This document shows, piece by piece, positions 3,708 to 54,464 of a stretch of DNA of 64,000 bases (the stretch's first letter is position 1; every line of letters starts with the position of its first letter). The position numbers were made by a program, and so were the translations under genes. This DNA comes from Streptomyces sp. NBC_01478. GTDB taxonomy: Bacteria; Actinomycetota; Actinomycetes; Streptomycetales; Streptomycetaceae. The DNA lies in NCBI RefSeq assembly GCF_036227225.1, contig NZ_CP109444.1:10583501-10647500 (forward strand), read 5' to 3'. A model generated the notes under the pieces. It saw nothing but the letters and a program-made list of their open reading frames with translations. It ran no database searches and had not been told where the DNA came from.

Positions 3708-3725
3708 TGTCCCGCCGGCGAGACA
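3708..3725. promoter_or_regulatory. Palindromic operator, copy 1
   Basis: TGTCCCGCCGGCGAGACA, 18 bp, one mismatch from a perfect palindrome. One of eight copies at the heads of cluster transcription units. It lies between divergent genes, 404 bp (from its centre) before the amidinohydrolase start and about 440 bp before the PhyH start. Confidence 0.75.
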
Positions 3726-3781
3726 ACCCCAGTCGTCGACTATCCATGACTGGCACCAACATGAACGCGGAGAAAGTCAGT

Positions 3782-3799
3782 TGTCCTGCTGACGGGACA
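3782..3799. promoter_or_regulatory. Palindromic operator, copy 2
   Basis: TGTCCTGCTGACGGGACA, same 18-bp architecture as copy 1 and 74 bp (about seven helical turns) from it. This is the only promoter region in the window with two copies. Confidence 0.7.
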
Positions 3800-4119
3800 C
3801 CCACGGCTGCGTTTCGGCGGACACGCTGTAGACCGCCTCGGTAGCGGGATGGCAATGGACCTTTTCGATTTACACTCCTGTGAGCAGCGGCCCGGCCTGA
3901 TAACGGCATGGATCAAGCAAGCGAATGCGATGAGCCGGAACGGACTGTTGCGGCTGCGCCGGATCGAGCCGGCCCGCGGGCCGACATGTCACGCGCGTGC
4001 TGTACGGCGACGGCCGACCCGCGCTCTCCGGTAGCTCGAATAGGCGGCCGGATGCGGTCCGCGGGACTCCGGAGTCGGTTTCAGAATTCTCGATGTTCAT
4101 CCTGCCGAAGGGAGCCAAG

Positions 4120-4962
4120 GTGACGGAAACGCAGTCGGAACGGACCGCGCTCGATCAGCGAAAGGCATTGACCCGGCACTATCTCATGTGCCGCCCCAGG
4201 TACTTCGACGTCACCTATTCGATCAATGCGTGGATGGACCCGGATCGCCCCACATCGACGCAGACCGGACTGGCCCAGTGGAAAAGGCTGTTCGATATCC
4301 TCGTCGGTCTGGGTCACGATGTACGGCTGATCGAGCCGGCACCGGGCCTTCCTGACATGGTCTTCGCCGCCAACGGGGCTCTTGTGGTGGACGGCAAGGC
4401 GCTCGTCGCGCGCTTCCGGCATCCTCAGCGCAGGGACGAGTCCGCGGCCTACCTGGAGTGGTTCAGCCGCGGTAGCTGGTCAGAGGTACGGCAGGCAGAG
4501 TACGTCAACGAGGGGGAGGGGGATTTTCTCTTCACAGGCGCGGAGATCCTGGCCGGCACCGGATTCCGCTCGGAATCGCGAGCTCATGACGAGGTGCGCG
4601 AGTTCTTCGAGCGTCCCGTGATCAGTCTGACCCTCGTCGATCCCCGGTTCTACCACCTCGATACGGCTCTGGCGGTGCTTGAGGACGGCGAAGTCATGTA
4701 CTACCCGGGGGCGTTCTCCCCGCAGAGCCGGGCAGTGCTGGCCGAGCGATTCCCGGACGCGATCCTCGCCGAGGAAGCTGACGCCGCCGTGTTCGGCCTC
4801 AACGCGCTGTCCGACGGCCGCAACGTCGTACTGCCCCGGGGAGCCACCGGCATCGCGGGGCAGCTGCGCGAGCGTGGCTACCATCCCATCGGTGCCGATC
4901 TTACGGAGCTGTTGAAGGCCGGAGGCAGCGTCAAGTGCTGCACGCTTGAACTCCGGGAATGA
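4120..4962 (+). CDS. DDAH-like amidinohydrolase (dimethylargininase / arginine-deiminase superfamily)
   Basis: A 280-residue member of the guanidino-group-modifying superfamily. Known members convert (methylated) arginine to citrulline. The expected catalytic His is in FYHLDTAL (residue 179) and the nucleophilic Cys is one of the pair in SVKCCTLE (273/274) near the C-terminus; the MVFAANG stretch near residue 80 is also typical. GTG at 4120 is preferred because GAAGGGAG sits 5 nt upstream; an in-frame ATG at 4093 lacks a comparable site. Here it stands alone behind two palindromic operators, so a cluster role is likely, perhaps in arginine/ornithine supply for piperazate or in modifying a guanidino building block; that role is inference. 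A hairpin terminator follows. Confidence 0.8.
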   Translation: MTETQSERTALDQRKALTRHYLMCRPRYFDVTYSINAWMDPDRPTSTQTGLAQWKRLFDILVGLGHDVRLIEPAPGLPDMVFAANGALVVDGKALVARFRHPQRRDESAAYLEWFSRGSWSEVRQAEYVNEGEGDFLFTGAEILAGTGFRSESRAHDEVREFFERPVISLTLVDPRFYHLDTALAVLEDGEVMYYPGAFSPQSRAVLAERFPDAILAEEADAAVFGLNALSDGRNVVLPRGATGIAGQLRERGYHPIGADLTELLKAGGSVKCCTLELRE

Positions 4963-5004
4963 GTCCCGGAGTCGGGCAAGTGCCGGCCGGGTTACGGTCG
5001 GCAC
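4951..5004 (+). terminator. Double hairpin after the amidinohydrolase gene
   Basis: Two stem-loops in a row: 8-nt arms at 4951-4958 and 4964-4971, with the stop codon in the loop, then 10-nt arms with one G-T pair at 4980-4989 and 4995-5004, followed by a pyrimidine-rich run. Probably a rho-independent terminator. Confidence 0.7.
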
Positions 5005-5828
5005 CTTCCGTTTTCCGTGGTCGTATGTTCCGCGCAGTGTGAGCTGGTCGTAGAACTTCGCTTTGTGCGGGGGCAGTTGGGCGCAGTAGCGTCAGCGGGC
5101 TGCCGAGCGCTTCAGCTGGTGGGACCCCGCACACTGTGGCTGCGGCTTGAGGATCCATGTCGAGCGGTGTTCACTCGTGGGTCGCGATCAGGCCGCGTCT
5201 GTTCTGCCGCGGTGGGGGAGTGCTCGATTTGGTCAGGATTGAACCCACCTGGCATCTGCGGTGAACCCGGGAGGCTGCGCTCGGCAACTCCCACTACCGG
5301 AGAGCCGGCGTCGAAACGGGCCTCCTTCGCCTGCGCGTCGACCGAGACGAGGGCGGGATCGGCTGTACCGGCTGTTGGACCGTCGCCGCGATGTTGGGCG
5401 CCCTCAGCACCGACGACTACGTCAACCCCGCCGTCGACGTGTGCCGCGAACTGGACATCCGGTGCGCTGGAGGCCACTGATCCTCTGAGCTGCGGTGCTG
5501 GTGGGGAACCACGCCATGAGCGGCTTTGAGCACGGGCTGGCAATCCGTCAGCAAGCAGGCGTTGACCTGACCCGGATGCAGTGTCGAGAAGCCTCGCAGT
5601 TCTGCCCGACCGGGCTGTTGGGTACGTGGCCCTGGGGCTGATAGCCGTGCAGACCGAGCCCTCCGTCCGGCCCGAAGGCGGAGTCCTACGAGTGTGGTCG
5701 TGCCTCCGCGCAGCGATACGTCAGACGCGCCCTGGCTGCCTGCTATAAGGACCGGCACAGAACCGACAGCCGCTACACATGAATTGATATGCAGGAGGGC
5801 GCCACACCTACGACATCGTCTGCGCGAC
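5005..5828. other. No confident gene
   Basis: About 0.8 kb between the amidinohydrolase terminator and the 3' end of the methyltransferase. Short open frames occur on both strands (for example about 5281-5480 plus), but none has consistent codon bias, a good ribosome site or a recognisable family. It may be decayed coding sequence. Confidence 0.5.
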
Positions 5829-7123: not shown

Positions 7124-7915
7124 CTACTTCGGGTCGCGGTTGAACTGTGACTGCGACCAGCGGTAGCCGAGGGCTGACAGGCCGACGCACCAGGCGATGG
7201 CGATCCACCAGTTGTTGCCGATCTCGGTGCCGAGCAGCAGGCCGCGCAGGGTCTCGATGGCCGGCGTGAACGGCTGGTACTCGGCGATCGGCTGGAACCA
7301 GCCCGGCATCGTGTCGGCCGGGATGAAGGCGCTGGAGATGAGGGGGAGGAGGATCAGCGGCATGGCCATGTTGCTGGCCGCCTCGGCGTTCGGGCTGGCC
7401 ATGCCCATCCCGACCGCGATCCAGGTGAGCGCCAGGGAGAACAGGGCGAGCAGCCCGAACGCTGCGATCCACTCCAGGACCGTCGCATCCGTGGACCGGA
7501 AGCCGATGGCCACGGCGACGGCGCCGACGAGGACCAGGCTGGCGAGCACCTGCAGCACACTGCCGACGACGTGCCCGATGATCACGGAGCCGCGGTGGAT
7601 CGCCATCGTACGGAAGCGGGCGATGACACCCTCGGACATGTCGGTGGCGACGGACACCGCGGCCCCGATCACGGTGCTTCCGATGGTCATCATCAGGATG
7701 CCGGGGACGATGTAGGCGATGTAGTCGGAGCGATCGGCGCCGCCGCCACCGATGCCGGCGCTCATCACATCGCCGAAGATGTAGACGAAGAGCAGCAGCA
7801 GCATGATCGGCGTGAGCAGCAGGTTCAGGGTGAGGGACGGATAGCGGCGCGCGTGCAGCAGATTGCGGCGCAGCATCGTGTTCGAGTCGCGTACGGCGAG
7901 GCTGAGGGCGCTCAT
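7124..7915 (-). CDS. ABC-2 type transporter permease (DrrB-like)
   Basis: A 263-residue integral membrane protein with about six hydrophobic segments (for example LLLTPIMLLLLFVYIFG near residue 35 and LLALFSLALTWIAVGM in the middle) and the DrrB-type layout of daunorubicin/multidrug exporters. Its ATG overlaps the stop of the ATPase gene (ATGA at 7912-7915), so the two are translationally coupled and form one exporter. It could export the cluster's product and give self-protection. The same gene set with DUF4097 and an RHH protein is also, from memory, common elsewhere in Streptomyces genomes, so a link to this cluster is plausible rather than shown. No palindromic operator precedes this operon. 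Confidence 0.88.
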   Translation of the reverse strand: MSALSLAVRDSNTMLRRNLLHARRYPSLTLNLLLTPIMLLLLFVYIFGDVMSAGIGGGGADRSDYIAYIVPGILMMTIGSTVIGAAVSVATDMSEGVIARFRTMAIHRGSVIIGHVVGSVLQVLASLVLVGAVAVAIGFRSTDATVLEWIAAFGLLALFSLALTWIAVGMGMASPNAEAASNMAMPLILLPLISSAFIPADTMPGWFQPIAEYQPFTPAIETLRGLLLGTEIGNNWWIAIAWCVGLSALGYRWSQSQFNRDPK

Positions 7916-8913
7916 CGGACATCCTCCTTGGACTGGTTGGGCACGTTGGCCGGGCCGGTGAGGGCGAAGAAAACATCGTCGAGGTCGGGGGTGTGCACGG
8001 TCAGCTCGTCCGCCTCGATGCCGACCGAGTCCAGCCAGTCGAGGATGGAGCGCAGTTCGCGCTGGCTGCCGTCGCTGGGGATCTGCAGGGCGAGTGCCTC
8101 GTCGTCCCGAGTCACTTCACGCAGGGTGGTGGCGGCGGCCTGGTAGACGGCCGGGTCGGTGAAGCGGAGCCGGATGTGCCCACCGGGGATGAGTCGCTTG
8201 AGCTCGGCGGCGCTGCCCTGGGCGGCGATCCTGCCGTCGTGGAGCACGGCGATGAGGTCGGCGAGTTGGTCTGCCTCCTCCAGGTACTGAGTGGTGAGGA
8301 AGACGGTCGTACCGCTCGTGACGAGTTCGCGGATGATCTGCCACATGGTGTGGCGGCTGCGGGGGTCGAGGCCGGTGGTCGGTTCGTCGAGGAAGATGAT
8401 CCGTGGGTTGCCGACCAGGGTCATGGCGAGGTCGAGGCGGCGCTTCATGCCGCCGGAGTAGGTGGAGGCGGGCTTCTTGGCGGCTTCGGTGAGGTCGAAG
8501 CGTTCCAGGAGTTCGGCGGCGGTACGGCGGCCTTCCTCCTTGGAGAGGTGGTGCAGGTCCGCCATGAGGAGCATGTTCTCTTCGCCGGTGATCAGGCCGT
8601 CGACGGCGGAGAACTGCCCGGTGACACCGATCGCGGCGCGGACTGCTTGGGGGGCTGTGGCGACATCGTGGCCCGCGACCTGGGCCTGGCCGCCGTTGGC
8701 GGAGATGAGGGTGGACAGAATGTTCACGGCCGTGGTCTTGCCGGCGCCATTGGGGCCGAGCAGGGCGAACACGGACCCGGCCGGGATACGCAGGTCGATG
8801 CCGTCGAGGACGGTCTTGTCGCCGAACGACTTGCGCAGACCGTCTGCGGAGATGGCGGCGGGCGACGGGTGACCGTCAGTCTGAATGGATGTGGGCATGA
8901 CAGATGAAGACAT
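7912..8913 (-). CDS. ABC transporter ATP-binding protein (DrrA-like)
   Basis: A 333-residue ATPase. Walker A is GPNGAGKTT, the signature is YSGGMKRR, and Walker B is IIFLDEPTTGLD followed by the H-loop region. The C-terminal extension of about 90 residues after the nucleotide-binding domain is as in DrrA-type exporters. The ATG at 8913 is preceded by GGGAGGG at 4 nt. It pairs with the overlapping permease gene and lies downstream of the DUF4097 and RHH genes on the same strand. Confidence 0.92.
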   Translation of the reverse strand: MSSSVMPTSIQTDGHPSPAAISADGLRKSFGDKTVLDGIDLRIPAGSVFALLGPNGAGKTTAVNILSTLISANGGQAQVAGHDVATAPQAVRAAIGVTGQFSAVDGLITGEENMLLMADLHHLSKEEGRRTAAELLERFDLTEAAKKPASTYSGGMKRRLDLAMTLVGNPRIIFLDEPTTGLDPRSRHTMWQIIRELVTSGTTVFLTTQYLEEADQLADLIAVLHDGRIAAQGSAAELKRLIPGGHIRLRFTDPAVYQAAATTLREVTRDDEALALQIPSDGSQRELRSILDWLDSVGIEADELTVHTPDLDDVFFALTGPANVPNQSKEDVR

Positions 8914-8987
8914 GGGGCCCTCCCGTTAGAAGGCTGGAGTGACATGGGGGCGGAGGAGGTGCGGCTGGTGCTGAAGTGCGGTGTCGC

Positions 8988-9830
8988 TCAGGCCTTGGCG
9001 CGGAGGATATCGATGTTGCCCCAGTTGGTCCGTACTCGGACCTTGACGCTGTCCTCGGTCCGCTCCGGGGCCTCGGTCCCGCCGAGCGTGTTGCGCACCT
9101 GGCCGTGGTTGGTGCTGACGTCGAGCCAGGCGGCGGCGCCCTCGCGGATGCCGACCTCGACGTTGCCGTTGGCGGTCTCCAACTGGATGCTGCCGTGGGC
9201 GACGTCACCGATGCGAAGAGTGCCGTTGGTGGTGGTGCCGGTGACCGACCCCTCCACGCGCGCGATGTCGATGGCACCGTTGGCGCCGCTCACCCGCAGC
9301 TCGCCGGTCACGGCGCCGATGGTCGTGGTGGCGTGCGAGTTCTTCAGGACGGCAGGGCCGTCGATGAGGCCGACGCGCATGTTGCCGGTGCTGCTGGTGA
9401 TCTCTGCCAGGCCCTCGACCCGTTCCACGTTGATCGAGCCGTGCGACGCCTTCAGCTGCAGCGGGCCGGTGGTGTCGAGGCGAACGTCGCCGGCCGAGGT
9501 CTTCACGTGGACCTCGCCGAGCCGGCCCTCGCCGATCACATGGGCCCCGGCGCCGTCCAGGGCGATGTTCGAGTCCGTGGGCAGTTCGACCGTCACGTCG
9601 ACGGTGCCGCCGCGCCCGAGCAGATTGGCCTTGGGCGTGGCGAGGGTCAGTACGCCGCTCGCGTAGGTGACCTGGGTCTGCTCGGCCGTCCGTACGTCCA
9701 GGTCCTTCTTCGGGTCGCGGGGTCGTACCTCGACGACGGTGTCGAGGCGGTCACCCGCGCTGAACCGGATGGAACCGGCATACACGTAGGCGGTGACCGA
9801 GATCGGTTCGGGGGTGTCGAAAGAAGGCAT
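8988..9830 (-). CDS. DUF4097-family beta-strand repeat protein
   Basis: A 280-residue protein made of short repeated strands of the type x-G-x-(I/V)-x-(V/I)-x (for example GSIQLETANGNVEVGI), predicting a parallel beta-solenoid as in the DUF4097 (adhesin-like) family. The biochemical role of the family is not established. It has no signal peptide or membrane segment, so it is probably cytoplasmic. It sits 74 bp upstream of the exporter ATPase and 81 bp downstream of the RHH gene. A clear paralogue is encoded at 47002-47844 in the same cluster. Confidence 0.85.
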   Translation of the reverse strand: MPSFDTPEPISVTAYVYAGSIRFSAGDRLDTVVEVRPRDPKKDLDVRTAEQTQVTYASGVLTLATPKANLLGRGGTVDVTVELPTDSNIALDGAGAHVIGEGRLGEVHVKTSAGDVRLDTTGPLQLKASHGSINVERVEGLAEITSSTGNMRVGLIDGPAVLKNSHATTTIGAVTGELRVSGANGAIDIARVEGSVTGTTTNGTLRIGDVAHGSIQLETANGNVEVGIREGAAAWLDVSTNHGQVRNTLGGTEAPERTEDSVKVRVRTNWGNIDILRAKA

Positions 9831-9896
9831 GGTTGTCCCGTCCTTGTGAGTCCCTGGGCCGTCCCCGCTGGTGGGACGTGGTGTGGATGAAGCGGT

Positions 9897-9929
9897 ACGG
9901 GTTGGGTGCGGCTAGCGCACCCAACCCGT
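9897..9929 (-). terminator. Hairpin overlapping the RHH stop codon
   Basis: Perfect 14-nt arms at 9897-9910 and 9916-9929 with a 5-nt loop; the TAG stop of the RHH gene lies in the loop. There is no T-run, so it may only attenuate transcription between the RHH gene and the DUF4097/exporter genes. Confidence 0.65.
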
Positions 9930-10427
9930 GTAACTCTGTCCGAGGGTGCGGGTCCTCTCCGTCGTACGCGGCCGGGTGCCGCCATCGACCGCGGCCGATA
10001 CGGTGCGCACCAGCCACGCGTTGACCGACAGACCCTCGTGGGCCGCGGCCTCCTCGGCGCGCGCCTTGAGGTGGGCCGGCAGGCGCAGATTGACGCGCGC
10101 CGTTCCGCTTTCGTCACCTTCGACGGGCGGGTGCGTCCTGAGTGGTTCGACGGGCTCCGTCGGATCCATGGGGCCGACGTCGACGGGCGGCGGCGTTACC
10201 ACGAAGTCGGGGTCCAGCCCGCGCAGCCGTACGTCGACTGAGCCAGGGGCGAGCTCGCGGGTGATCTCGTCCATCGCGGCGGAGAGCACGTTGAGCAAGG
10301 TCAGCCGAGTCGCCGACTCCAGGGGGGCGGTGAGCCGATCGGCCAGCTCGCGGGCGTCTTCGCCGCCGGCTTCGGCGGCCACCGCGAGTTCCCGCCGCAG
10401 GTTGTCGACATACGGAGTGAGGTCCAT
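9912..10427 (-). CDS. Ribbon-helix-helix (HicB-antitoxin-like) DNA-binding protein
   Basis: A 171-residue protein whose C-terminal part (about residues 110-145, RVNLRLPAHLKARAEEAAAHEG then LSVNAWLVR) is a ribbon-helix-helix DNA-binding motif of the HicB/Arc type. The N-terminal half is helical and acidic. No HicA toxin gene is adjacent, so it is more likely a regulator of the DUF4097/ABC operon it heads than an antitoxin. The ATG at 10427 is chosen because the protein opens MDLTPYVDNL there; the frame extends slightly upstream. Tandem 11-bp repeats overlap this start codon and recur about 100 bp upstream, suggesting autoregulation. Confidence 0.8.
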   Translation of the reverse strand: MDLTPYVDNLRRELAVAAEAGGEDARELADRLTAPLESATRLTLLNVLSAAMDEITRELAPGSVDVRLRGLDPDFVVTPPPVDVGPMDPTEPVEPLRTHPPVEGDESGTARVNLRLPAHLKARAEEAAAHEGLSVNAWLVRTVSAAVDGGTRPRTTERTRTLGQSYTGWVR

Positions 10428-10456
10428 AACGCCATGATGGCACCACTGTGGCGCTA
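10427..10456. promoter_or_regulatory. Tandem 11-bp direct repeats at the RHH start
   Basis: Three units in phase: TAACGCCA (10427-10434), TGGCACCA (10438-10445) and TGGCGCTA (10449-10456), each 8 bp with 3-bp spacers. The first overlaps the start codon. Tandem sites with helical spacing are how RHH repressors typically bind. A weaker pair, TTGTGTCA and TGGCGCCA, is at 10538-10556. Confidence 0.55.
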
Positions 10457-11001
10457 TGCGCAAGCCTCAATGGTGCCGGGTGTGGAGTGAGCTTATGGGC
10501 AACTGCCTTGAGCTGCGGAAATCGGTAATAGGGCCACTTGTGTCATCGTGGCGCCATGTGTTCCTGACTGGCTTCGGAGGCGTGGAAAGACGCCGAAGTG
10601 ACAGCGGGGTAGCGTCAAACGGTGACACTCGGCGTCATCCGACGGCTTGGGTGCTCGACCGATCGTGGCCCTGGGCGCCGGCGCAGTGACCTCGGTGGCA
10701 ACAGTCTTGTGCCGGGGCTTGCCTATCGGCATCAGCAGGTTCGGTCTTGTTCGCCCCGACCCGTCAGGGGGAACCGTAGGAACTTGAGCAGCCCCAGCTT
10801 GCCCCTGGCCCGGGCGCGGCAGTGCGCTCGACGAGGCCGAGGGGTTGTCGTTCATTCCCATGCGAGGACGCCTCCTGTGGGCGGGGCATGGGCGGCTCCA
10901 GGACGGGAATGTTGCGACCCTGTGCCGGCGCGGCAGCGCGCACAGGCTGCATGGGATCGAGGAGCGGTCGCCAAGGCAGGGACGCCGTCGCCGGCAACGG
11001 G

Positions 11002-11471: not shown

Positions 11472-12308
11472 TCACCAGTCGAATGTCTCCCCGTCAGCCC
11501 TGCTGTCGACGCAGTACCTGCGGAAGGCCTGGGCCTTTGCGAGCACCTTGGCGTCCCCGCTCCGCCGCGCGGCCTCTTCGTACCAGTCGAACGCCGCGAC
11601 GGCATGCGTGCGCCGCTCGAAGTGAAGCGCGGCGAATCGACGGAAGTCCGACCGCATGGTCGCCGGGGTCAACGTCCGGCCGGAGCCTGCGAGTTCTTCG
11701 AGCTCCGCTTCTGTCGCCTCAGGTCGTTCGATGATGCGGATCGGCTCGGTCGCGGGTATGTCGTTGCGGATCGCGACGGGCTCTTCGGCGTCCGAGAAGT
11801 CGAGACAGAGGGAGAGCCGGGCGGTCTCGGAAGAGCTGCGCGCGGAATGCGGGACAGTCGTGTGTATCTTCCACACCTCCCCGCGACGGAGGTGGTAGAC
11901 GACATCGTTCTCGGAATGCAGGGACTCTTCGCTGGTACGCAACGGAATCTGTAGCCTGGTGCCTGGTTTGGACCATTCGAGAAAGTCCACGTGCGGAGCC
12001 ATGATTCCGTCACGCAGGCTGAAGATGCGTACCCACTGCAACCGGTCCAGGGAGAAATTCTCGGTCACCAGGGACATGATGCCTGGTAGCTGCTTGCCCA
12101 GTTCAGTGAGGGTCAGACGGCCATCGTGGGGGCGGAAGGCGATATCGGAATCGGCTCCACTGCCGTTGGCCAGGACATGGCACGACCACGACCCGAAAGT
12201 GAGAGCATCGTACTCGCCTCCGTACTCGTGGCTGTCCACGATGGACAGTTCGGAATCCAGATCGAGCAAGTCGATGGGCAGCACCGCAAGCCGTTGCGAA
12301 TTAAGCAA
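11472..12308 (-). CDS. Fe(II)/2-oxoglutarate hydroxylase of the proline 3-hydroxylase / Asp-Asn hydroxylase type
   Basis: A 278-residue double-stranded beta-helix oxygenase. The facial triad is H106-x-D108 (in APHVDFLEW) and H154 (in VPHSARSS), followed by RLSLCLDF. The layout, including LHSENDVVYHLRRGEVW, resembles Streptomyces L-proline 3-hydroxylase as I recall it; relatives hydroxylate proline or pipecolate. The likely substrate is a free amino acid used by the NRPS, possibly piperazate, proline or a beta-carbon; this is inference. TTG at 12308 is preferred because GAAGGGG lies 6 nt upstream; another in-frame TTG is at 12323. It is divergent from the PCP-P450-PKS operon, with an operator between them (12556). 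Confidence 0.8.
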   Translation of the reverse strand: MLNSQRLAVLPIDLLDLDSELSIVDSHEYGGEYDALTFGSWSCHVLANGSGADSDIAFRPHDGRLTLTELGKQLPGIMSLVTENFSLDRLQWVRIFSLRDGIMAPHVDFLEWSKPGTRLQIPLRTSEESLHSENDVVYHLRRGEVWKIHTTVPHSARSSSETARLSLCLDFSDAEEPVAIRNDIPATEPIRIIERPEATEAELEELAGSGRTLTPATMRSDFRRFAALHFERRTHAVAAFDWYEEAARRSGDAKVLAKAQAFRRYCVDSRADGETFDW

Positions 12309-12862
12309 CGAAATCCCCTTCAATGCATGATCGTTTGATTAGCCCAGAAAGTGCTGGGCATTACTCCGAGTCGTCACCATAATTCTTCGTAAATGTGTTG
12401 GCAATGACGTGGCTGGTCGCGAGGTAGTGAGAGCTCGGTCTGTCCAGGGGTGTCGCAGGCCGCGCAGGTGGACTGCCAGCGGTGTCGGCCTGTATCTCCC
12501 AGGCGTCGCGAGCCGGATCGGCCGTCGGTTCGGTCAGGGCGGAGGCGCACATTACTGTCCTGTCGGCGGGACAACGGGTGCCGGCGGGGTGTCTGTGCTG
12601 TCATCCGCCGCACGGGGTTTCCGAGGATCCGCGATGTAGCCGACATCGAACTCGGGGAGGCTACGGAATACCCTCCGTGGAGCCACAATAGGGTGCCGCT
12701 GATGAACATTCGGATGTCTTTCCTGAAGGGGATGGATGCCTTGCGTAGTCTGTAGTAGAGCTTTAGGTTCGTCTTGATTATTCGCGCGGCGCCCGCTGGC
12801 GAACCTTGCGAACATGTAGCGTAGGTGGTCATTTCCGTTCGACGGAGAATGAAAGGCTGGCG
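12309..12862. other. Divergent promoter region
   Basis: About 550 bp between the hydroxylase (minus) and the free PCP (plus). It is more AT-rich than the surroundings and holds the operator at 12556-12573. A 63-codon frame on the minus strand (12361-12552) starts against the operator but has no ribosome site or family match. Confidence 0.5.
12556..12573. promoter_or_regulatory. Palindromic operator, copy 4
   Basis: TGTCCTGTCGGCGGGACA, flanked by ATTAC on one side and AAC on the other, the same flanks as copy 8 at 54447. It can serve the hydroxylase (about 257 bp away) and the long PCP-P450-TE-PKS operon (about 298 bp away). Confidence 0.8.
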
Positions 12863-36957: not shown

Positions 36958-37125
36958 CTGACCGCACGGACGTACCTTGAATTACTCGCGGTGCCGGGTC
37001 TACGTTGGCGGCGCGACCGATGAAAATGCCAACCCGTCTGGACGTGGGAGTTTCTTGGAGCGGAAGATTACCGGTCGAAGATGCGAACAGTGCACCGTGC
37101 AGCCATGCCAGCGGGAGAATTCTCT

Positions 37126-38472
37126 ATGGGTAATCGTGAACACGAGATCTACGACGTGGTCGGCATCGGGTTCGGTCCGTCCAACCTTTCGCTCGCCATC
37201 GCTCTGGAAGAACACGGGGCGGCTGATTCGGAAAACGAGATCAGCGCCCTCTTCTTCGAGCGGCAACCCACTTTCGGCTGGCACCGCAACATGCTGCTGC
37301 CGACGACGACCATGCAGATATCCTTTCTCAAGGACCTGGTTACCTTCCGCAATCCGACGTCGAGTTTCAGCTTCATCGCCTATCTGCACGCGTCGGGGCG
37401 GCTCCCGCAGTTCGTCAACAACCAGGACTTCTTCCCCACCCGCCAGGAGTTCCACCAGTACCTGGAGTGGGCGCAGGCCCGGGTGGCCGACCGCATCGCC
37501 TACGGCTCGGACGTGACGTCGATCCGGCTGCCGCGTGGCGCCGTCCCTGAGCTGTCGGACCGGCTGCGGCTGGAGGTCGCGGACGCCAACGGCAGGGCCG
37601 GCCGCGTGGTCGAGGCACGGAACGTGGTCATCTCCACCGGCCTGGTCCCGAGCATGCCCGAGGGAACCGAGCGCGACGAACGCGTGTGGCACAGCTCCGA
37701 GTTCTTGGAGAAGTACCGCCGGATGGACCCCCGGGAGCTGCGCCGGGTGGCGGTGGCCGGAGCGGGACAGAGCGCCGCCGAGATCACCAGGTTCCTGTAC
37801 GACGAACTCCCGCACGCCCAGGTCTGGTCGGTCATCCCGTCGTACGGCTACTCCGTCGCGGACGACACCCCCTTCGCCAACCAGGTCTTCGACCTGGAGG
37901 CCGTCGACGACTACTACTTCGGCACCGAGCAGACCCGCGAGGCGTTCTGGCGGTACCACCGCAACACCAACTACTCGGTCGTCGACGACGACGTGATCAG
38001 GGATCTGTACCGCAGGTCGTACGACGACGAGGTGCGGGGCGTCAGCCGGCTGAAGTTCCTCAACCTGACGCGGATCACCGGCGTCAAGCGCGTCGGCGCC
38101 GAGACCCGGGTCTCCCTCCAGGGCGGCCCCGACGCCGAGGTGTCCGAACTCGACTTCGACGCCCTTGTCTGCGCCACTGGATACGAGGCCATGGAGCCCA
38201 CGGGCCTGCTCGGCGATCTCGACCGCCTCTGCCTCCGCGACGAGGCGGGCCGGTACCGGGTGGAGCGGGACTACCGCATCGTCACCGCCCCCGAGGCCCG
38301 GTGCGGCATCTATCTCCAGGGCGGTACCGAACACACCCACGGCCTGACCTCCTCGCTGCTGTCGAACATCGCGGTACGCAGCGGCGAGATCGTCGACTCG
38401 ATCGCCGCCCGGCGCGCGGGACACGACGTCGAGCAGGCCGTCCTCGCCGAGGTCGGCGGGGACACCCGTTGA
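37126..38472 (+). CDS. ktzI: L-ornithine N5-monooxygenase (SidA/PvdA/KtzI family)
   Basis: A 448-residue flavin N-hydroxylase. The FAD site is GIGFGPSNLSLA near residue 13; PTTTMQISFLKDLVT and NPTSSFSFIAYL are strongly conserved in ornithine and lysine hydroxylases. The NADPH site GAGQSAAE is near 212 and the late VCATGYE motif is present. It should hydroxylate the side-chain amine of ornithine with FAD, NADPH and O2. With the PaiB/KtzT-type protein at 53692 this is the known two-enzyme route from ornithine through N5-hydroxyornithine to piperazate. Lysine cannot be excluded from sequence alone. ATG 37126 has GGGAGAA about 7 nt upstream; earlier in-frame ATGs lack one. An operator lies 186 bp upstream. 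Confidence 0.9.
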   Translation: MGNREHEIYDVVGIGFGPSNLSLAIALEEHGAADSENEISALFFERQPTFGWHRNMLLPTTTMQISFLKDLVTFRNPTSSFSFIAYLHASGRLPQFVNNQDFFPTRQEFHQYLEWAQARVADRIAYGSDVTSIRLPRGAVPELSDRLRLEVADANGRAGRVVEARNVVISTGLVPSMPEGTERDERVWHSSEFLEKYRRMDPRELRRVAVAGAGQSAAEITRFLYDELPHAQVWSVIPSYGYSVADDTPFANQVFDLEAVDDYYFGTEQTREAFWRYHRNTNYSVVDDDVIRDLYRRSYDDEVRGVSRLKFLNLTRITGVKRVGAETRVSLQGGPDAEVSELDFDALVCATGYEAMEPTGLLGDLDRLCLRDEAGRYRVERDYRIVTAPEARCGIYLQGGTEHTHGLTSSLLSNIAVRSGEIVDSIAARRAGHDVEQAVLAEVGGDTR

Positions 38473-41011: not shown

Positions 41012-41014
41012 GCA

Positions 41015-44113: not shown

Positions 44114-45403
44114 TTACTGCGATATTCCGATGCTTTCGGCGCGCATGTCGTCGAGCGCCGACGCGATGACCTGGACTCCGGCAGCGATGGTGTCCGGATC
44201 GGGAGTGATGCTGATGCGGAAGCACTGCTGGGCGTGGCGGCCGAGGCTCTGGCTGGGCTCGGCGTCGGTGAAGAAATGTCTTCCCGGCACGACGAAAACG
44301 CCCCTGCGCTTGAGCGTCTCGTACAGACGCAAGTCGTCGAACCACTCCTCGTCCACCCAGACCCAGCAGAACATGCCGCCCTCGGAGGCGTGCAAGTGCC
44401 AGGCGATGTCCTCTGGCAGGGTCTCCGCCAGCAGCGACTCGACGAATTTCCTGCGCTCGGCGTAGAAGGGGCCGATGACCGATGCGACGAGCATGTCGAG
44501 GACGTCGGACCGCAGCGCGTGAGTCAGCGTCGACTGGACCAACTGAGGGGCGTGTAGCGCTGAGTTGGACAAGAACGAGACGATCGGGTCGATGTGTTGC
44601 TCATCGGCGATGGCGAAGCCCAGGCGCTCTCCTGGAAGTCCGGCCTTCGAGAGGGAGAAGACATTGATGACGTGTTCGTCCCGGATCGGCGCTGTCGATG
44701 GTCCGCCGATGGCGGGGAAAGGAGCGCCGTACGCGTTGTCGACCACGAGCGGCACGTCGTGGCTGTGGGCGGCAGCGACAAGCCGCTGTATCTCGTCGTG
44801 TGACGCGCAGCGGCCGGCCGGGTTGCTCGGGCTGGACAGCAGCATGAGCCCGACGTCCGTCAGCCCCTCAAGGCTAGGCAGATCAAATAGATAGCGGAAC
44901 GACCGGTCGTCCTGGAGGTGTAAGACGGGCTCAACTCCCGTGACTCCACCGGGCGTTAGGGAAAGGCCTTGGTAGCCCGTGTAGTCGGGGGTCATCGGCA
45001 GGACAAGCCTGGTGTCGCGGGTCGCGCCCGCCCCGGTGAAGAGCGCCGCGGCGATGAAACAGAGCATCTGGCTGCCGGGACCCACCACGATGTTGCGCGG
45101 CTCGATACTCCAGCCGTAGCGCTTGTTGAAATAGTCGGCGATCGCGTCGACGAGTTCCGGCAGTCCGCGTGACGGTCCGTATCGGCAGCTGACATTTCCG
45201 AAGGAGGCGACCAGCGCTTCGGTGGTCATCCGTTGCCAGGTGTCCATCACCTTGGGTATGGCTGCGGGATTGCCTATGCCGAGGTTGAGCCACTCCGTTC
45301 CAGTGGCGGAGCCAGTGGTCGTGGCGATGTCATCCATGATGAGCCGAAGCCCTGACAGACTGGCCATTTTAGTTCCGGACCGGGACAACTCCACGGGAGG
45401 CAT
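44114..45403 (-). CDS. avtA: AvtA-like valine-pyruvate aminotransferase
   Basis: A 429-residue fold-type I PLP enzyme. It aligns well with E. coli AvtA as I recall it: GNPAAIP near the start, YGPSRGLPELVDAI, the DNAYGAPFP loop, the PLP Lys in SLSKAGLPGER (K253) and the late VVPGRHFF motif. AvtA interconverts valine and pyruvate with 2-oxoisovalerate and alanine. In this cluster it may supply or recycle an aliphatic amino acid, or the keto acid precursor of a branched PKS extender; both are inference. ATG 45403 has GGAAAGG immediately upstream; a GTG three codons in has better spacing, so the start is uncertain. An operator lies 270 bp upstream at 45665. Confidence 0.85.
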   Translation of the reverse strand: MPPVELSRSGTKMASLSGLRLIMDDIATTTGSATGTEWLNLGIGNPAAIPKVMDTWQRMTTEALVASFGNVSCRYGPSRGLPELVDAIADYFNKRYGWSIEPRNIVVGPGSQMLCFIAAALFTGAGATRDTRLVLPMTPDYTGYQGLSLTPGGVTGVEPVLHLQDDRSFRYLFDLPSLEGLTDVGLMLLSSPSNPAGRCASHDEIQRLVAAAHSHDVPLVVDNAYGAPFPAIGGPSTAPIRDEHVINVFSLSKAGLPGERLGFAIADEQHIDPIVSFLSNSALHAPQLVQSTLTHALRSDVLDMLVASVIGPFYAERRKFVESLLAETLPEDIAWHLHASEGGMFCWVWVDEEWFDDLRLYETLKRRGVFVVPGRHFFTDAEPSQSLGRHAQQCFRISITPDPDTIAAGVQVIASALDDMRAESIGISQ

Positions 45404-48695: not shown

Positions 48696-50936
48696 TTGGC
48701 TACTTTGCTCTACAGGGTCGGCCGCTTAGCCGCCCGGCGACGAGGTCTCACCGTCCTGTTGTGGATCCTGGTTCTGGGCGGGGTCGGATTTGCCGCGTCG
48801 TCCGCACCGCCCCCTCCCACCGACACTTTTTCCATGCCAGGTACCGAGTCCCAGAAGGCCCTCGACCTGCTGAAGGAGAAGTTTCCGGCCGCAAGTGCCG
48901 ACGGCGCCTCGGCCCGGGTCGTGGTCCGCGTGCCGGCGAACGAGAAGATCTCGGATCCCAGGCCGAAGAAGAACGTGGCCACTCTTGTCGCCGAGCTGGC
49001 GAAGGCCCCACAGGTCGTTGCGACGTCCGATCCGTTCACAACGGGCGCCGTCAGCAAGGACGGCACGTCGGCCTACACGATCGTCACGTACAAGGTTGCC
49101 GCCCTGAAGATCTCCGACGACGCGCACAACGCCCTGAAGAAGGCGGCCGACGACGCTCGCGCGAACGGGCTCGTGGTCGAGATGGGCGGCGACGCGGTCC
49201 CCGTGAAGCAGGCGACGAGCGGCACGTACGAAAGCATTGGCATCGGTGTCGCCGCCCTCATTCTCCTGACGACCTTCGGTTCGCTGGTAGCGGCGGGCAT
49301 GCCGCTGCTCACCGCCGCTGTTGGGGTCGGCATCGGCGTCTCCGCGATCGGCGCCCTGGGCAGCACGCTTGGCCTGTCCTCGACCACCACCACCCTGGCC
49401 CTGATGATCGGCCTGGCCGTGGGGATCGACTATGCCCTGTTCGTCATCTCTCGCTATCGCGCCGAGATGGCCGAGGGCCGGGAGCGGGTGGAGGCCGCCG
49501 GCCGGGCGGTGGGCACTGCGGGCTCCGCCGTGGTCTTCGCGGGCCTTACGGTCATCGTCGCCCTCGCCGGGCTTGCTGTCGTCAACGTCCCGATCCTTAC
49601 GAAGATGGGCTTGGCGGCGGCGGGAACCGTCGCGATCGCCGTTCTGGTTGCCGTCACCCTCGTGCCTGCACTGCTCGGCTTCGCCCCGTTCAAGGTGCTG
49701 CGCCGCAGGGACCGTAAGCGGATCGCGGGCAAGCCGCTGTCCGGGCGTCAGCGTCGCAAGGCCGCGAAAGAGGCCGCCCGGCAGCGGCCGAATCTGGGTG
49801 CTCGGTGGGCGGCCTTCGTCCTGCGCCGTCCCGTCGTCGTCCTACTGTTCGGGGTGCTCAGCCTCGGAGTCGTCGCCGTTCCCGCGACCCGGCTGGAGCT
49901 CGGCCTGCCCAGCGAAGGCACCATGGCCCCCGATACCACCCAGCGCAAGGCGTACGACATGTTGTCGGAGTCCTTCGGCCCCGGCTTCAACGGGCCTCTG
50001 ATGGTTGCCATCGAGGCCCACGACGCCAAGTCCGTGGGGAAGGCTGTTGTCGCCAAGCTGTCCGGCGAGCCCGGCGTCGCCCAGGTGGGCGCGGTGACCC
50101 CGAACAAGGCGGGCGATACCGCGATCGTCAACGTCGTACCGGACAAGGGGCCTGCGGACGACCAGACGAAACAGCTGGTCAAGAACCTGCGTGGCGACCT
50201 CGCCCCGGTCGGGCGTGCCCATGACGCCGAGGTCTTGGTGAGCGGGCAGACAGCCATGTTCATCGACTTCTCCAACACCCTCACTGACGCGTTGCTGCCC
50301 TACCTCGCCCTCGTGGTCGGTCTCGCCTTCCTGTTGCTGATCCTTGTCTTCAGGTCGCTCATCGTGCCGTTGAAGGCAGCTCTCGGATTCCTATTGTCGG
50401 TGTCCGCGGCGCTCGGCGCCCTTGTAGCGATCTTCCAGTGGGGCTGGCTCGCCGACATCGTGGGGGTCGACCAGCCGGGTCCGATCATCAGCACGCTGCC
50501 GATCATCATGATCGGTGTTGTCTTCGGCCTTGCCATGGACTACGAGGTCTTCCTGGTAACCCGGATGCGTGAGGCCTACGTCCATGGGGAGTCGACTCGC
50601 CAGGCGGTCGTCACCGGCTTCCGGCACGGTGGCCGCGTGGTCGCTGCGGCCGCACTCATCATGACCAGCGTCTTCTCCGGCTTCATCGTGCAGGACAACG
50701 TCTTCGTGCGGATGATCGGCCTCGGCCTCGCCCTGGCGGTCCTCTTCGATGCTTTCGTCGTCCGCATGGCTGTTATCCCGGCGCTCTTCGCCCTCCTCGG
50801 CGACCGCGCGTGGTGGCTGCCGAAGTGGCTCGACCGGATATTGCCCGACATGGATGTGGAAGGCGAGAGGCTGTCGCGCCGACCTGTGGTCCAGCGCGGC
50901 CCGCGGCCACTGCGCGAACCCAAGTACACCCGCTGA
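48696..50936 (+). CDS. MMPL/RND-family transporter
   Basis: A 746-residue integral membrane protein with the MMPL layout: one N-terminal membrane helix, a large extracytoplasmic loop (about 35-170), five or six helices (about 175-350), a basic cytoplasmic linker rich in Arg/Lys (about 345-380), then the same pattern again with helices at about 530-700. Conserved loops include GLAVGIDYALF in the first half and GLAMDYEVFLVTRMREAY in the second. These proton-driven exporters move lipids or hydrophobic metabolites; export of the depsipeptide is plausible. TTG 48696 follows AGGAG by 10 nt. A hairpin terminator lies just downstream. Confidence 0.9.
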   Translation: MATLLYRVGRLAARRRGLTVLLWILVLGGVGFAASSAPPPPTDTFSMPGTESQKALDLLKEKFPAASADGASARVVVRVPANEKISDPRPKKNVATLVAELAKAPQVVATSDPFTTGAVSKDGTSAYTIVTYKVAALKISDDAHNALKKAADDARANGLVVEMGGDAVPVKQATSGTYESIGIGVAALILLTTFGSLVAAGMPLLTAAVGVGIGVSAIGALGSTLGLSSTTTTLALMIGLAVGIDYALFVISRYRAEMAEGRERVEAAGRAVGTAGSAVVFAGLTVIVALAGLAVVNVPILTKMGLAAAGTVAIAVLVAVTLVPALLGFAPFKVLRRRDRKRIAGKPLSGRQRRKAAKEAARQRPNLGARWAAFVLRRPVVVLLFGVLSLGVVAVPATRLELGLPSEGTMAPDTTQRKAYDMLSESFGPGFNGPLMVAIEAHDAKSVGKAVVAKLSGEPGVAQVGAVTPNKAGDTAIVNVVPDKGPADDQTKQLVKNLRGDLAPVGRAHDAEVLVSGQTAMFIDFSNTLTDALLPYLALVVGLAFLLLILVFRSLIVPLKAALGFLLSVSAALGALVAIFQWGWLADIVGVDQPGPIISTLPIIMIGVVFGLAMDYEVFLVTRMREAYVHGESTRQAVVTGFRHGGRVVAAAALIMTSVFSGFIVQDNVFVRMIGLGLALAVLFDAFVVRMAVIPALFALLGDRAWWLPKWLDRILPDMDVEGERLSRRPVVQRGPRPLREPKYTR

Positions 50937-50947
50937 CGTGTGCCATG

Positions 50948-50977: not shown

Positions 50978-51007
50978 ACAATCGGTGAGAAGTCGTGCGC
51001 CGCGTGG

Positions 51008-52201
51008 CTACCGCGCCTGTTGCGCCGTGGTGCGGCACGACGTCGAGGTGAACCCGTACAGGCGCCGAAAGGTGTATGCGGCGGAGACGAGGGCCATGTG
51101 GTGGTACCAGCCGAGGAACGAGCGTCCCTCGAAGTCCAACAGCCCGAAGTCCTGCTCCATGGAACCGACCACGGCCATCGTCTCGTTCTGCAGCGCGGCG
51201 ATCGAAGTGACCTCCGCGACAGGCTGATGGGCGAGGCTGGTGAGCCACAGTGGGCCCGGCACACGGTTGGGGCCCTGTTCGGTGAAGAGCCGGTAGAGGG
51301 GGCCGGGCGAGCGCCCATGGGGGTTGTCCGGCAGATGGACGAGCGACGTCTGGATGGGTGTGATGCGCTGCTGCCCGTCCGTGGGGGAGACGACAGCCGT
51401 CTCTGCCCCTTGCGAGAGGATCAGGGTCCTTGCGCTTACGGGAGCTATGGCGCTCTCGCCGGCGTGCAGCACCGCCAGGTGGGGTGGCACCGTGACGACG
51501 AAGTCCCTGCGACGCTTGGCGAGTCCGTGCAGCAGGTACCCCACGTCGGGTTCGTCGCTCATGTCGACGAGGACGACGGAGGACGTGGAGTTCGTGCGGG
51601 CCGACAGCCGGTCGACGAGCCCGAGTACGTGCGCCCACAATGGCCGGTACTGCTCGGAGTCCGGTATGCGTGCCTCACGGCGCCGTCTGGGGTCCTGCGT
51701 CCAGGTCGTCGGCAAGTACAGGCACCAGTCGACGGGAACCTGAGCGGTTCCTACGCACAGGAAGGAGCCCAGTCCCAGTTGGCAGTTGAGCGTACGGGCC
51801 GAAGGCAGATCGAAGTAGCGGTGGACACCCACCGATCGGTCACCGCGCTTCGGCAGGACGGCCCGACCGATGGACCAGACGGGGGCCGGTCGATGGTCCG
51901 TCACCAACTGTGTGAGTTCCCCCATGACTTCGTCGAAGTCCCATGGACTGAGGCTGACGAACTGCCGTAGAGACTGCACGGCGGACGGGTCGCGGGAGAC
52001 TGCGGTGGCGAGCCGGCGTACAGACTTCTTTCCCGACGTGACGAGCAGCCCTCTCAGATAGGTGTGCGCCCAGTTGCGTTGATCAATTCGACGTAAGCTC
52101 TTGAAGATCTTCCGACTGTAATGGTCCAGGGTTAATTCGGAACCGTTGGCGTAAGTCGCGTCTTGTGAAGTCGGTGAGGTGTCTGATTGGACAGTGTTCA
52201 T
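51008..52201 (-). CDS. IS701/DDE_5-like transposase-derived protein lacking the first catalytic Asp
   Basis: A 397-residue protein with the fold of IS701-family transposases: SVGVHRYFDLPSARTLNCQL, then PVDWCLYLPTTW, then RIPDSEQYRPLW in the middle, and DFEGRSFLGWYHHMAL near the end. Where active enzymes have V-D-D-T/S before PK, this one has S-I-G-R-A-V-L-P-K, so Gly112-Arg113 replace the Asp pair that includes the first catalytic residue. The second acidic region (VLVDMSDEPD) is kept. No flanking inverted repeats were found. It may be a domesticated DNA-binding protein, perhaps a regulator. Tandem TGGCGCCA-like repeats lie 50 bp before its ATG. Confidence 0.75.
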   Translation of the reverse strand: MNTVQSDTSPTSQDATYANGSELTLDHYSRKIFKSLRRIDQRNWAHTYLRGLLVTSGKKSVRRLATAVSRDPSAVQSLRQFVSLSPWDFDEVMGELTQLVTDHRPAPVWSIGRAVLPKRGDRSVGVHRYFDLPSARTLNCQLGLGSFLCVGTAQVPVDWCLYLPTTWTQDPRRRREARIPDSEQYRPLWAHVLGLVDRLSARTNSTSSVVLVDMSDEPDVGYLLHGLAKRRRDFVVTVPPHLAVLHAGESAIAPVSARTLILSQGAETAVVSPTDGQQRITPIQTSLVHLPDNPHGRSPGPLYRLFTEQGPNRVPGPLWLTSLAHQPVAEVTSIAALQNETMAVVGSMEQDFGLLDFEGRSFLGWYHHMALVSAAYTFRRLYGFTSTSCRTTAQQAR

Positions 52202-52888: not shown

Positions 52889-53572
52889 ATGACGAAACAG
52901 GTCGACGACTACAGAGAATCCAAGGCGCTCAAATTCGGCAATACCGAAGAGCGCATGCCGAAAACCCGCAGGGCCGGCGGGGTGGAATCACGGTGCGATC
53001 AGGTACTCACAACGAAGGTAGGGCTGCATATACCCGTAGGGCTCGCCTTCGAGGAGTGGGAACGCGCCGGGCGTCAGCTCTCCGGGCTGCTCAACTCGTC
53101 GTCCTGGTGGCTCGGGGACTGGCTCATCTACGGTAAGGACCAATACGCCGACCGCTATGAACGCGGCATCCGTGCGGCCGGCCTTCAGTATCAGACGTTG
53201 CGCAACTATGCCTGGGTTTCCCGGCGGTTCGAACTACACCGGCGGCGGTCGGCGCTCAGCTTCCAGCACCACGCCGAACTGGCTTCGTTGCCCGTTGATG
53301 AGCAGGAGGCCTGGCTCGATCGTGCCGAGCGGATGAAATGGAACACCAAGCAACTGCGCAACGCCATCCGGGCCGAACGCGAGGGTGCCTCGGAGCAGAC
53401 GAACGCCGTGGCGGCGACACGTCGGCTCGCCGTGCCCGACAGCAGGCTCCAATGGTGGCACAAGGCGGCGGCCCATTCCGGCACCGAGCTGGAAGAGTGG
53501 GTGACGGCCACGCTCGACGCCGCCGCCAGTCAGGTGTTGATGGAGGCCGACCAGCATCTGCCTCTCGATTGA
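52889..53572 (+). CDS. LmbU-family transcriptional regulator
   Basis: A 227-residue protein recognised as a LmbU/NovE/HrmB-type cluster-situated regulator by the run GLHIPVGLAFEEWERAGRQL, SSSWWLGDWLIYGKDQYADR, then YQTLRNYAWVSRRFELHRRR and LSFQHHAELASLP. The central part is predicted helical with an HTH-like segment. LmbU activates the lincomycin cluster and, as I recall, binds a CGCCGGCG palindrome; the eight palindromes in this window have that core. It is therefore the best candidate to control them. ATG 52889 has GGAGG about 4 nt upstream. The frame is open to 52775, but the upstream codons look non-coding. It is convergent with the KtzT-type gene. Confidence 0.9.
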   Translation: MTKQVDDYRESKALKFGNTEERMPKTRRAGGVESRCDQVLTTKVGLHIPVGLAFEEWERAGRQLSGLLNSSSWWLGDWLIYGKDQYADRYERGIRAAGLQYQTLRNYAWVSRRFELHRRRSALSFQHHAELASLPVDEQEAWLDRAERMKWNTKQLRNAIRAEREGASEQTNAVAATRRLAVPDSRLQWWHKAAAHSGTELEEWVTATLDAAASQVLMEADQHLPLD

Positions 53573-53590
53573 CCGACCATCGGCCTGTAC

Positions 53591-53625
53591 GACGGTCACG
53601 TCGGAGGCTGGCGGACGTGACCGTC
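53591..53625. terminator. Bidirectional hairpin terminator
   Basis: Perfect 12-nt arms at 53591-53602 and 53614-53625 with an 11-nt loop, between the convergent LmbU-family and KtzT-type genes. Confidence 0.75.
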
Positions 53626-53691
53626 CGGCGCGGTGAACGTTGCGGGGTTCGCACAGCAAGGGGTGCGGACCCCGCGCCATGGAAAATACTG

Positions 53692-54336
53692 TTACGGCAG
53701 GCGGTCCATGAGATCCGCCGTCTGTGCGTGCCGGGTGCACCCGCGCCCGGCGAACGACTGCGCCACCCGCTCGCGAACCTCGGGGCGCTGTTCCTGGCTG
53801 AGCTTGAACATTCCCTCGGCCTTGGTCACCCGGACACGGAAAGCTCCCACGCCCGGCACTATCTTCCGGAAATAGTCGATGGATTCACGCATGTCCCAGC
53901 TGTCGCCGAATTCCTTCTCGAACGCTCGTACCGTCGCCTGTACGACGCCCAGTGTCTCCTCTGTCGACTCGACCTTTTCTACCTCTCCGCGCACGTGCAC
54001 CGAGGTGAAATTCCAGGTAGGGGCAGCCGGAGTAATTCCGTAAACAGTGGGGGAGACGTAAGCGTGCGGTCCGGTGAATGTCAGCAGGATCATCGACCCG
54101 GTGTCCAGTGCCGCCCAGTGCGGATTGGCCCGGTTCATGTGACCCAGCAAAGGCATCCCGGACAAGTCCGCGGCGGGTAGTCCCTCCCATCGAGGGTCGG
54201 TTATGACCGGAAGATGGGTGGCGATTGGTCCGTCGCCGAGAGTTCCGTTGCTGGCCATCAGCGCCAGAGGGTTTCCGCGCATCAGGTCGACCATCCATGA
54301 AACGTCCGGTTCCCGGTAGTGGTTGGGGACGAACAT
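53692..54336 (-). CDS. ktzT: Piperazate synthase (KtzT/PzbB type, PaiB-like fold)
   Basis: A 214-residue protein of the PaiB (FMN-binding split-barrel) family: MFVPNHYREPDVSWMVDLMR, then GPIATHLPVI, GHMNRANPHW, LLTFTGPHAYVSPTVYG and WNFTSVHVRGEVE. PaiB homologues in piperazate clusters are the heme enzyme KtzT, which closes the N-N bond of N5-hydroxyornithine. In this setting, with an ornithine N-hydroxylase at 37126 under the same operator motif, that role is much more likely than a PaiB regulator. ATG 54336 follows AAGGGTGAG; earlier in-frame codons have no ribosome site. An operator lies 119 bp upstream at 54447. It is the last gene of the cluster on the right side. Confidence 0.88.
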   Translation of the reverse strand: MFVPNHYREPDVSWMVDLMRGNPLALMASNGTLGDGPIATHLPVITDPRWEGLPAADLSGMPLLGHMNRANPHWAALDTGSMILLTFTGPHAYVSPTVYGITPAAPTWNFTSVHVRGEVEKVESTEETLGVVQATVRAFEKEFGDSWDMRESIDYFRKIVPGVGAFRVRVTKAEGMFKLSQEQRPEVRERVAQSFAGRGCTRHAQTADLMDRLP

Positions 54337-54446
54337 GCGGCACTCACCCTTCGTGGTGTGACGGGAACAGGAACTTTGCGACGTTGAGTCCGCGAGACGC
54401 TGCAATGACGCTGTGAAGGTTCGGCTATTCGACGAAACCGTATTAC

Positions 54447-54464
54447 TGTCCTGTCGGCAGGACA
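54447..54464. promoter_or_regulatory. Palindromic operator, copy 8
   Basis: TGTCCTGTCGGCAGGACA, preceded by ATTAC and followed by AAC exactly as copy 4. It lies 119 bp before the piperazate synthase start and marks the right edge of the predicted regulon. Positions 54465-54803 hold nothing else that I recognise. Confidence 0.8.

Follow-up and report, generated by a model that had tools for sequence, protein, structure and literature searches.

What does an 18-bp palindrome that recurs ahead of gene after gene do in a biosynthetic cluster of Streptomyces sp. NBC_01478, and which protein reads it? The stretch analysed, called the window throughout, is 64,000 nucleotides long (C1:10583501-10647500 of the 12.12-Mb single-contig genome; window position = genome position - 10583500) and lies in what is probably an azinothricin-type cluster of nonribosomal peptide synthetase (NRPS) and polyketide synthase (PKS) genes. 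The palindrome is very probably an operator, here termed the LmbU box (YGTCYYGYCGRCRRGACR, most often TGTCCYGYCGRCRGGACA), which would be read by LmbU-family regulators and would define an LmbU regulon over most units of the cluster, mainly activated.

A first-pass annotation had reported eight copies in the window, and all eight 18-mers were re-found where it had placed them, with positions 2-5, 7, 10, 12 and 15-18 invariant throughout. Eight was too low a total for the cluster, which holds ten copies, two of them outside the window. The sites, to which no strand is assigned, are listed with their scores in bits where given (matrix built from other genomes, see below).

3708..3725: LmbU box TGTCCCGCCGGCGAGACA, in the divergent gap between the PhyH and DDAH-like amidinohydrolase genes; 26.3 bits
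3782..3799: LmbU box TGTCCTGCTGACGGGACA, in the same divergent PhyH/DDAH-like amidinohydrolase gap; 25.1 bits
6828..6845: LmbU box upstream of a TylF-like methyltransferase gene (likely start 6566); 25.7 bits
12556..12573: LmbU box between an amino-acid hydroxylase gene (- strand) and cytochrome P450/thioesterase/PKS genes (+ strand, first start ~600 bp off); 28.4 bits
33601..33618: LmbU box close upstream of an NRPS gene, ~31 bp from the likely start or 22 bp should ATG 33641 be used; 26.7 bits
36932..36949: LmbU box, perfect palindrome, upstream of ornithine N-hydroxylase/thioesterase/adenylation (A)/peptidyl carrier protein (PCP)/radical-SAM genes; 27.6 bits
45665..45682: LmbU box upstream of a class I/II aminotransferase gene (- strand); 24.3 bits
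54447..54464: LmbU box upstream of piperazate synthase (MFKLSQE; likely start 54336), with N4-TACGGT on the gene-ward side; 28.3 bits
C1:10552119-10552136 (-31381, outside the window): LmbU box upstream of an FAD monooxygenase gene
C1:10558906-10558923 (-24594, outside the window): LmbU box between E1-dehydrogenase genes and an MbtH-LmbU-A-PCP-oxidoreductase row, which NRPS-sized open reading frames (ORFs) follow

The label palindrome holds strictly for three of the ten sites; the others have one (four sites), two (two sites) or three (one site) mismatched pairs. None of the ten falls in a called gene (calls were made with a simple codon-usage caller and Pfam), which agrees with the earlier statement that every copy is non-coding, except that site 54447 is included when the piperazate-synthase ORF is extended to its maximum length, with a TTG start; ATG 54336 is the likelier start. 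The enrichment in this cluster that the annotation had named as its test was borne out by a scan of the 12.12-Mb genome, in which TGTCCYGYCGRCRGGACA at up to one mismatch had 10 matches, all within 10552119-10637964 (86 kb); the chance of ten random places spanning so short a stretch is near 4e-19. Seven further matches had exactly two mismatches (six elsewhere, one within a cluster gene), and these look like background because the reversed control pattern gave 14 genome matches at two or fewer mismatches, counted without their places. The looser pattern GTCCNGNNGNCNNGACA scarcely exceeded its control in number (16 matches forward and 12 reverse, against 12 and 10). With the matrix from other genomes the ten cluster sites scored 24.3-29.5 bits; the runner-up in 160 kb scored 17.2 and lies in a gene, and the next scored 7.9.

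The annotation had named an LmbU-family protein as the candidate regulator. The family was upheld by the cross-genome comparison described below; the number was not, since this genome encodes two LmbU-family proteins, both in the cluster.

C1:10559360-10560070 (= L002:15859-16569): LmbU-1, ArtB/PlyB-like, 236-aa form, left of the window in the MbtH operon
52889..53572, + strand: LmbU-2, convergent with piperazate synthase (longest ORF from 52775)

Both are members of family NF038070 (238 bits for LmbU-1 and 230.8 bits for LmbU-2; curated cut-off 125 bits). The helix of the helix-turn-helix (HTH) motif reads YQTLRNYAWVARR in LmbU-1 and YQTLRNYAWVSRR in LmbU-2; YQTLRNYAWVARR is near-invariant and is paired with a near-invariant operator. 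Arg101 of LmbU contacts DNA according to PMC6510168, and this residue would correspond to the first R of the helix. LmbU-1 is 74% identical to the putative regulator P0069 from the polyoxypeptin strain Streptomyces sp. MK498-98F14. Two LmbU genes per cluster recur elsewhere (L130-L132, as annotated, and L051-L055, L058, L061 and L086), and in L130-L132, as in this cluster, one gene of the pair comes after MbtH while its partner points towards piperazate synthase in a convergent arrangement.

The tie between palindrome and LmbU was assessed across 391 genomes of the order. An exact motif match was found in 43 (reversed control, 1/391) and LmbU genes above the curated cut-off in 63; 41 of the 43 motif genomes carry LmbU, against 63/391 overall (Fisher p 6e-37; 4e-36 without this genome). 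The two motif genomes without LmbU are G145, for which no place was listed, and G270, where the site is in a convergent gap. The motif also emerged from a count of dyads. Stretches of at most 20 kb enclosing the LmbU genes in the remaining 62 genomes served as a training set (73 loci, 1.42 Mb; terminal-repeat copies of G121 left out), and with no preset motif TGTCC-N8-GGACA came top among all 5-mer inverted dyads with spacers of 0-20 (55, expected 3.7), followed by its nested forms in second and third place. GTCTC-N6-GAGAC was also prominent (14, expected 1.7), and short-spaced GC-rich dyads such as CCTCG-N1-CGAGG (85, expected 17.8) were over-represented too; the latter were taken for coding periodicity.

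The refined matrix, whose training includes nine in-gene sites, located sites in 63 of the 73 loci with a best score of at least 21.8 bits in each, the remaining ten scoring below 7 bits. Above 18 bits there were 121 sites in the real loci and none in three first-order Markov copies, which at 13 bits give 5.3 sites per 73-locus set. Markov copies were used as the control because the nine control pieces from the genome itself (180 kb; 2 sites above 13 bits, 0 above 18) include L009-L015, which had been chosen for loose matches. Called genes contain ten of the 126 sites above 13 bits (nine in lmbU, one in another gene) and the other 116 are outside them; leaving lmbU aside, 116 of 117 sites are non-coding, in loci of which ~78% is called coding. 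Of the 126 intergenic sites (our own ten included), 71 lie in divergent gaps, versus 1070 of 4137 random intergenic points, and 2 in convergent gaps, versus 593 of 4137. The distance from box to called start is mostly 100-350 bp, and in 16 of 17 loci compared with the window's piperazate synthase a site lies 46-176 bp upstream of the match; the seventeenth, L054, is without such a gene on its contig. Half-site positions 5/14, 6/13 and 8/11 co-vary, T at position 5 is most frequent with one clade (TSLSYQTLRNYTW, no formal statistics), and the flanks beyond the shared 18 bp carry almost no information. A promoter geometry common to all sites was considered and rejected: the single peak, N4-TANNNT, comprises ten flanks, nine of them piperazate-synthase promoters and the tenth from L054, and it reflects homology and not independent evidence because nearly all of the flanks are piperazate-synthase promoters.

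Loci outside the matrix training were scored as well, and with them the comparison with related clusters that the annotation had proposed came out in its favour: the motif tracks LmbU both across genomes and in held-out loci. Twelve of 22 plasmid records with an LmbU match were picked before motif inspection, with public annotation, and all 12 contain a site above 18 bits. Of their 27 sites, 25 are outside annotated genes, against a non-coding share of at most 15%, an overestimate since the gene tables lack some entries and the end of L133's was left out. Ten of the 12 have a site upstream of a gene; L136 has its box only inside lmbU, and the two sites of L134 lie within a gene and in a convergent gap. 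Sites recur beside MbtH, an FAD oxidoreductase, LmbU-2 and arginine genes and between ornithine hydroxylase and piperazate synthase, and the set takes in the lunaemycin cluster and a Pseudonocardia plasmid. Among 14 loci (three short) in 12 genomes of other orders, 11 have a site and 10 an intergenic one. Named loci were the best 80 of 237 matches, S. lincolnensis not being among them; ten repeat the training set, and of the 70 new ones 42 have a site and 34 an intergenic site. The 65 named-locus sites divide into 48 intergenic, 14 in lmbU and three in other genes. One Markov copy per held-out set gave 0 sites.

We propose that one or both of the cluster's LmbU proteins bind the ten boxes in nine promoter gaps, and that bound LmbU would coordinate, perhaps simultaneously, most biosynthetic units of the cluster. 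By analogy with ArtB, LmbU, NovE and HmtD, it would act mainly as an activator. The LmbU-1 gene itself sits in a gene row with a box upstream. The earlier suggestion that one protein coordinates the whole pathway thus keeps one part, a single DNA-binding family acting across the cluster, to which the genome scan and the related clusters point, and loses another, in that several units have no box.

Several results weigh against this proposal. In the cluster itself, no site above 10 bits was found upstream of the ABC-transporter/DUF4097/HicB unit (7124-10463), MMPL (48696) or LmbU-2, and site 33601, close to a start codon, is oddly placed for an activator. No site within ~10 kb was found for ten of the 73 training loci or for 28 of the 70 new named ones; 24 of the 34 site-less loci among the 80 fall into two clades, AWVARH and AWIARK (the latter mostly Saccharothrix). 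Whole genomes were searched for 33 of 36 loci, these being the 34 site-less ones and two with a weak site only; TGTCYYGYCGRCRRGACA was matched somewhere in 18 of the 33 (control, 0) and was absent from 15. The plasmid loci are partly close relatives (L129/L139, L128/L135) and hence not independent. Positions 1/18 show no co-variation, that at the other positions is inflated because the sites are related to one another, and no -10 spacing shared across sites emerged when base composition and TANNNT were scanned in the 252 flanks of the 126 sites.

Members of the AWVARH clade have one perfect box, at a distance from lmbU. It is 28 kb from the gene in G150 and 15 kb in G295, and in L126 and L127 the box is upstream of adenylation/carrier/MbtH genes. 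This clade includes S. parvulus and S. actinomycinicus and perhaps represents actinomycin clusters. Compensated variants with low matrix scores, TGTCG...CGACA and TGTAC...GTACA, occur at L204:10221-10238 and L156:4207-4224 and are perhaps altered-specificity boxes.

The earlier remark that no copy lies inside a gene stands for this cluster, where the genes of LmbU-1 and LmbU-2 have no in-frame box, and fails for its relatives, which often hold a box within lmbU. There it occupies a fixed codon position, over the residues S-R-R-R-D right after the HTH, in nine loci of the first set and in named loci.

L205:10221-10238: box within lmbU
L194:8401-8418: box within lmbU
L072:10120-10137: box within lmbU
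L216 and others: box within lmbU

The possibility that the in-gene box is a by-product of coding was evaluated against all synonymous versions of the seven codons per gene, weighted by local codon usage (14 of 184 lmbU genes could not be placed and were dropped). The box was present in 24 of 28 SRRRD gene records (expected 2.0; some genomes are present twice) and in 13 of 16 SRRRD groups at 75% protein identity (expected 1.2), and for SRRRD genes the by-product explanation was rejected. The L205 gene, from Streptomyces niveus, uses TCT and CGA codons and its box is still symmetric; S. niveus and S. rishiriensis, the novobiocin and coumermycin producers, are among the species whose regulator gene would hold the box in its codons. 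A later set of 14 loci weighs against retention by synonymous codons, with a box in one of three SRRRD genes (L245, not L251 or L254; L251 is the same genome region as L204). Many lmbU genes encode the box within their own frame, where synonymous codon choice appears to preserve it; this may be a new observation.

Comparison with published systems places the palindrome with a known regulator family. LmbU of the lincomycin cluster of S. lincolnensis shares with the present proteins the family NF038070, an HTH with a key arginine, probably the central 8 bp of the target and the position of cluster-situated regulator, LmbU being reported as an activator (PMC6510168, PMC10763038). Its element was given as CGCCGGCG, extended to TCGCCGGCGA, with 176 matches in S. 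lincolnensis (PMC10763038); the 10-mer TCGCCGGCGA occurs 193 times in our genome. CGCCGGCG would be the centre of the palindrome and is exact in three of the ten sites (3708, 36932 and -31381), the other seven varying within it. The published element is 8-10 bp long and unspecific, whereas the element described here has 18 bp and only ten near-exact genome copies. At lmbA of S. lincolnensis we would expect a box resembling TGTC-TCGCCGGCGA-GACA. LmbU was reported to bind the promoters of lmbA and lmbW and not those of lmbC or lmbK, whereas boxes occur in nine promoter gaps of the present cluster. The clusters of ArtB (aurantimycin) and PlyB (polyoxypeptin) have an MbtH-regulator-A-PCP-hydroxylase-NRPS order that the present genes resemble (PMC5031334, PMC3943440), and Pfam assignments of MbtH, LmbU, A, PCP, hydroxylase, ornithine N-hydroxylase and piperazate synthase follow the order in the art and ply gene tables; the present cluster differs in its second LmbU, beside piperazate synthase. 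Mutants in artB of the related aurantimycin cluster lose most of the product, and ArtB is reported as a positive regulator (PMC5031334). HmtD (himastatin) and Lun18 (lunaemycin) are encoded, like LmbU-2, by LmbU-family genes in piperazate clusters (PMC9866976). In the lun cluster, which makes cyclic hexapeptides and is distinct from the one described here, boxes lie in the piperazate synthase/ornithine oxygenase gap and the MbtH/argJ gap.

How LmbU would act at the boxes is the point on which an alternative survives best. LmbU might bind them chiefly as a repressor or as a two-way switch, with the boxes in lmbU serving as roadblocks, which we consider unlikely. Repression would fit the box-N4-TAYGKT arrangement in ten flanks, nine of them upstream of piperazate synthase, where boxes would touch the core promoter, as well as the closeness of box 33601 to a start codon and the report that LmbU represses its own promoter (PMC6510168). 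However, ArtB, NovE, HmtD and LmbU are all reported as positive regulators overall, and box-start distances of 100-350 bp leave space for a downstream promoter.

It is considerably less probable that the palindrome is the operator of another cluster regulator of TetR, SARP, LysR or MarR type that travels with LmbU. Such regulators do occur in related clusters: SARP, ScbR and TetR genes are present in plasmid loci, and TetR proteins bind palindromes of similar length. ArtX of the aurantimycin cluster is a further example. The motif, however, tracks LmbU across unlike neighbourhoods and into other orders (the genome-wide search covered the LmbU family only), lmbU itself contains it in 13 of 16 SRRRD groups, and its centre would be the published LmbU core. 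A function as an RNA hairpin, an attenuator or terminator, is highly improbable: the arms TGTCCCG/CGGGACA could pair about a 4-nt loop and hairpins co-vary too, but here loop positions 8/11 co-vary as well (90 matched, null 61.6), the sites lie mainly in divergent gaps well upstream of starts, and no T-run occurs in the 20 bp following any of the eight window sites. A dispersed repeat or a GC-rich chance product, conceivable given how common GC-rich palindromes such as TCGCCGGCGA are in this genome, is refuted to the point of being negligible by the ten sites in a single 86-kb stretch, the lack of any Markov-copy site above 18 bits and the restriction of similarity to 18 bp between nearly information-free flanks.

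The predicted fold of LmbU-1 suggests a further relationship. The model, which has additional N-terminal residues at low confidence, appears to resemble the DNA-binding domain of ParB/Noc joined to a C-terminal ribbon-helix-helix-like part. Sequence comparison with the PDB gave no ParB link (one match only, an unrelated enzyme, E 0.28), and hhalign against one single ParB gave a probability of 0.2. Compared with ParB, Noc and KorB, which read parS/NBS-type palindromes, LmbU-1 differs by having no N-terminal CTPase domain, for which there is no room because only ~45 residues precede the ParB/Noc-like domain, and by the putative C-terminal ribbon-helix-helix-like part. We regard as evenly balanced the idea that LmbU proteins are CTPase-less relatives or look-alikes of ParB/Noc reading a parS-like palindrome, that the S-R-R-R-D codons of many members, in the DNA-binding region, hold this operator with its symmetry kept by synonymous and sometimes rare codons (TCT, CGA), and that the gene would thereby be an autoregulatory switch or contain an internal promoter for the next gene. 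A literature search, mostly without subscription papers or supplements, found no account of an 18-bp operator, a box in lmbU or an LmbU-ParB link, nor any operator for ArtB, PlyB, HmtD or Lun18. LmbU is a known regulator family for which a better-defined operator is predicted here; the in-gene operator and the ParB/Noc-like fold are possibly new.

Under the proposed LmbU regulon, four enzyme genes of the window are among the predicted targets.

53692..54336, - strand: piperazate synthase (FMN_bind_2, KLSQ motif)
37081..38472, + strand: ornithine N-hydroxylase
44114..45403, - strand: aminotransferase
11472..12323, - strand: nonproteinogenic amino-acid hydroxylase (TIGR04531)

The KLSQ motif is that of piperazate synthases in PMC10888640. 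Other site neighbours identified with Pfam/NCBIfam include a dimethylargininase-like gene, a TylF-like methyltransferase and the P450/thioesterase genes; for the long ORFs after the latter, PKS is the label of the first-pass annotation, and NRPS genes were named by ORF size. Insertion-sequence transposases at 51008-52201 (DDE_5) and 56874-58019 (IS110 type) bracket the LmbU-2/piperazate synthase/serine hydrolase segment. Rare TTA codons occur in the aminotransferase (44114-45403, codon 161) and in MMPL (48696-50936, codon 11 of the longest form), hinting at bldA dependence of both.

LmbU regulators are common in Streptomyces and its kin (63/391 genomes of the order), and their published target was only an 8-10-bp word. 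With an 18-bp operator nearly confined to its cluster, regulons, targets and cluster borders would become readable from sequence, as the two sites outside the window illustrate. The operator may offer a handle for waking silent pathways, piperazate-containing and others, and the box within lmbU would make autoregulation in the family addressable by synonymous codon changes alone.

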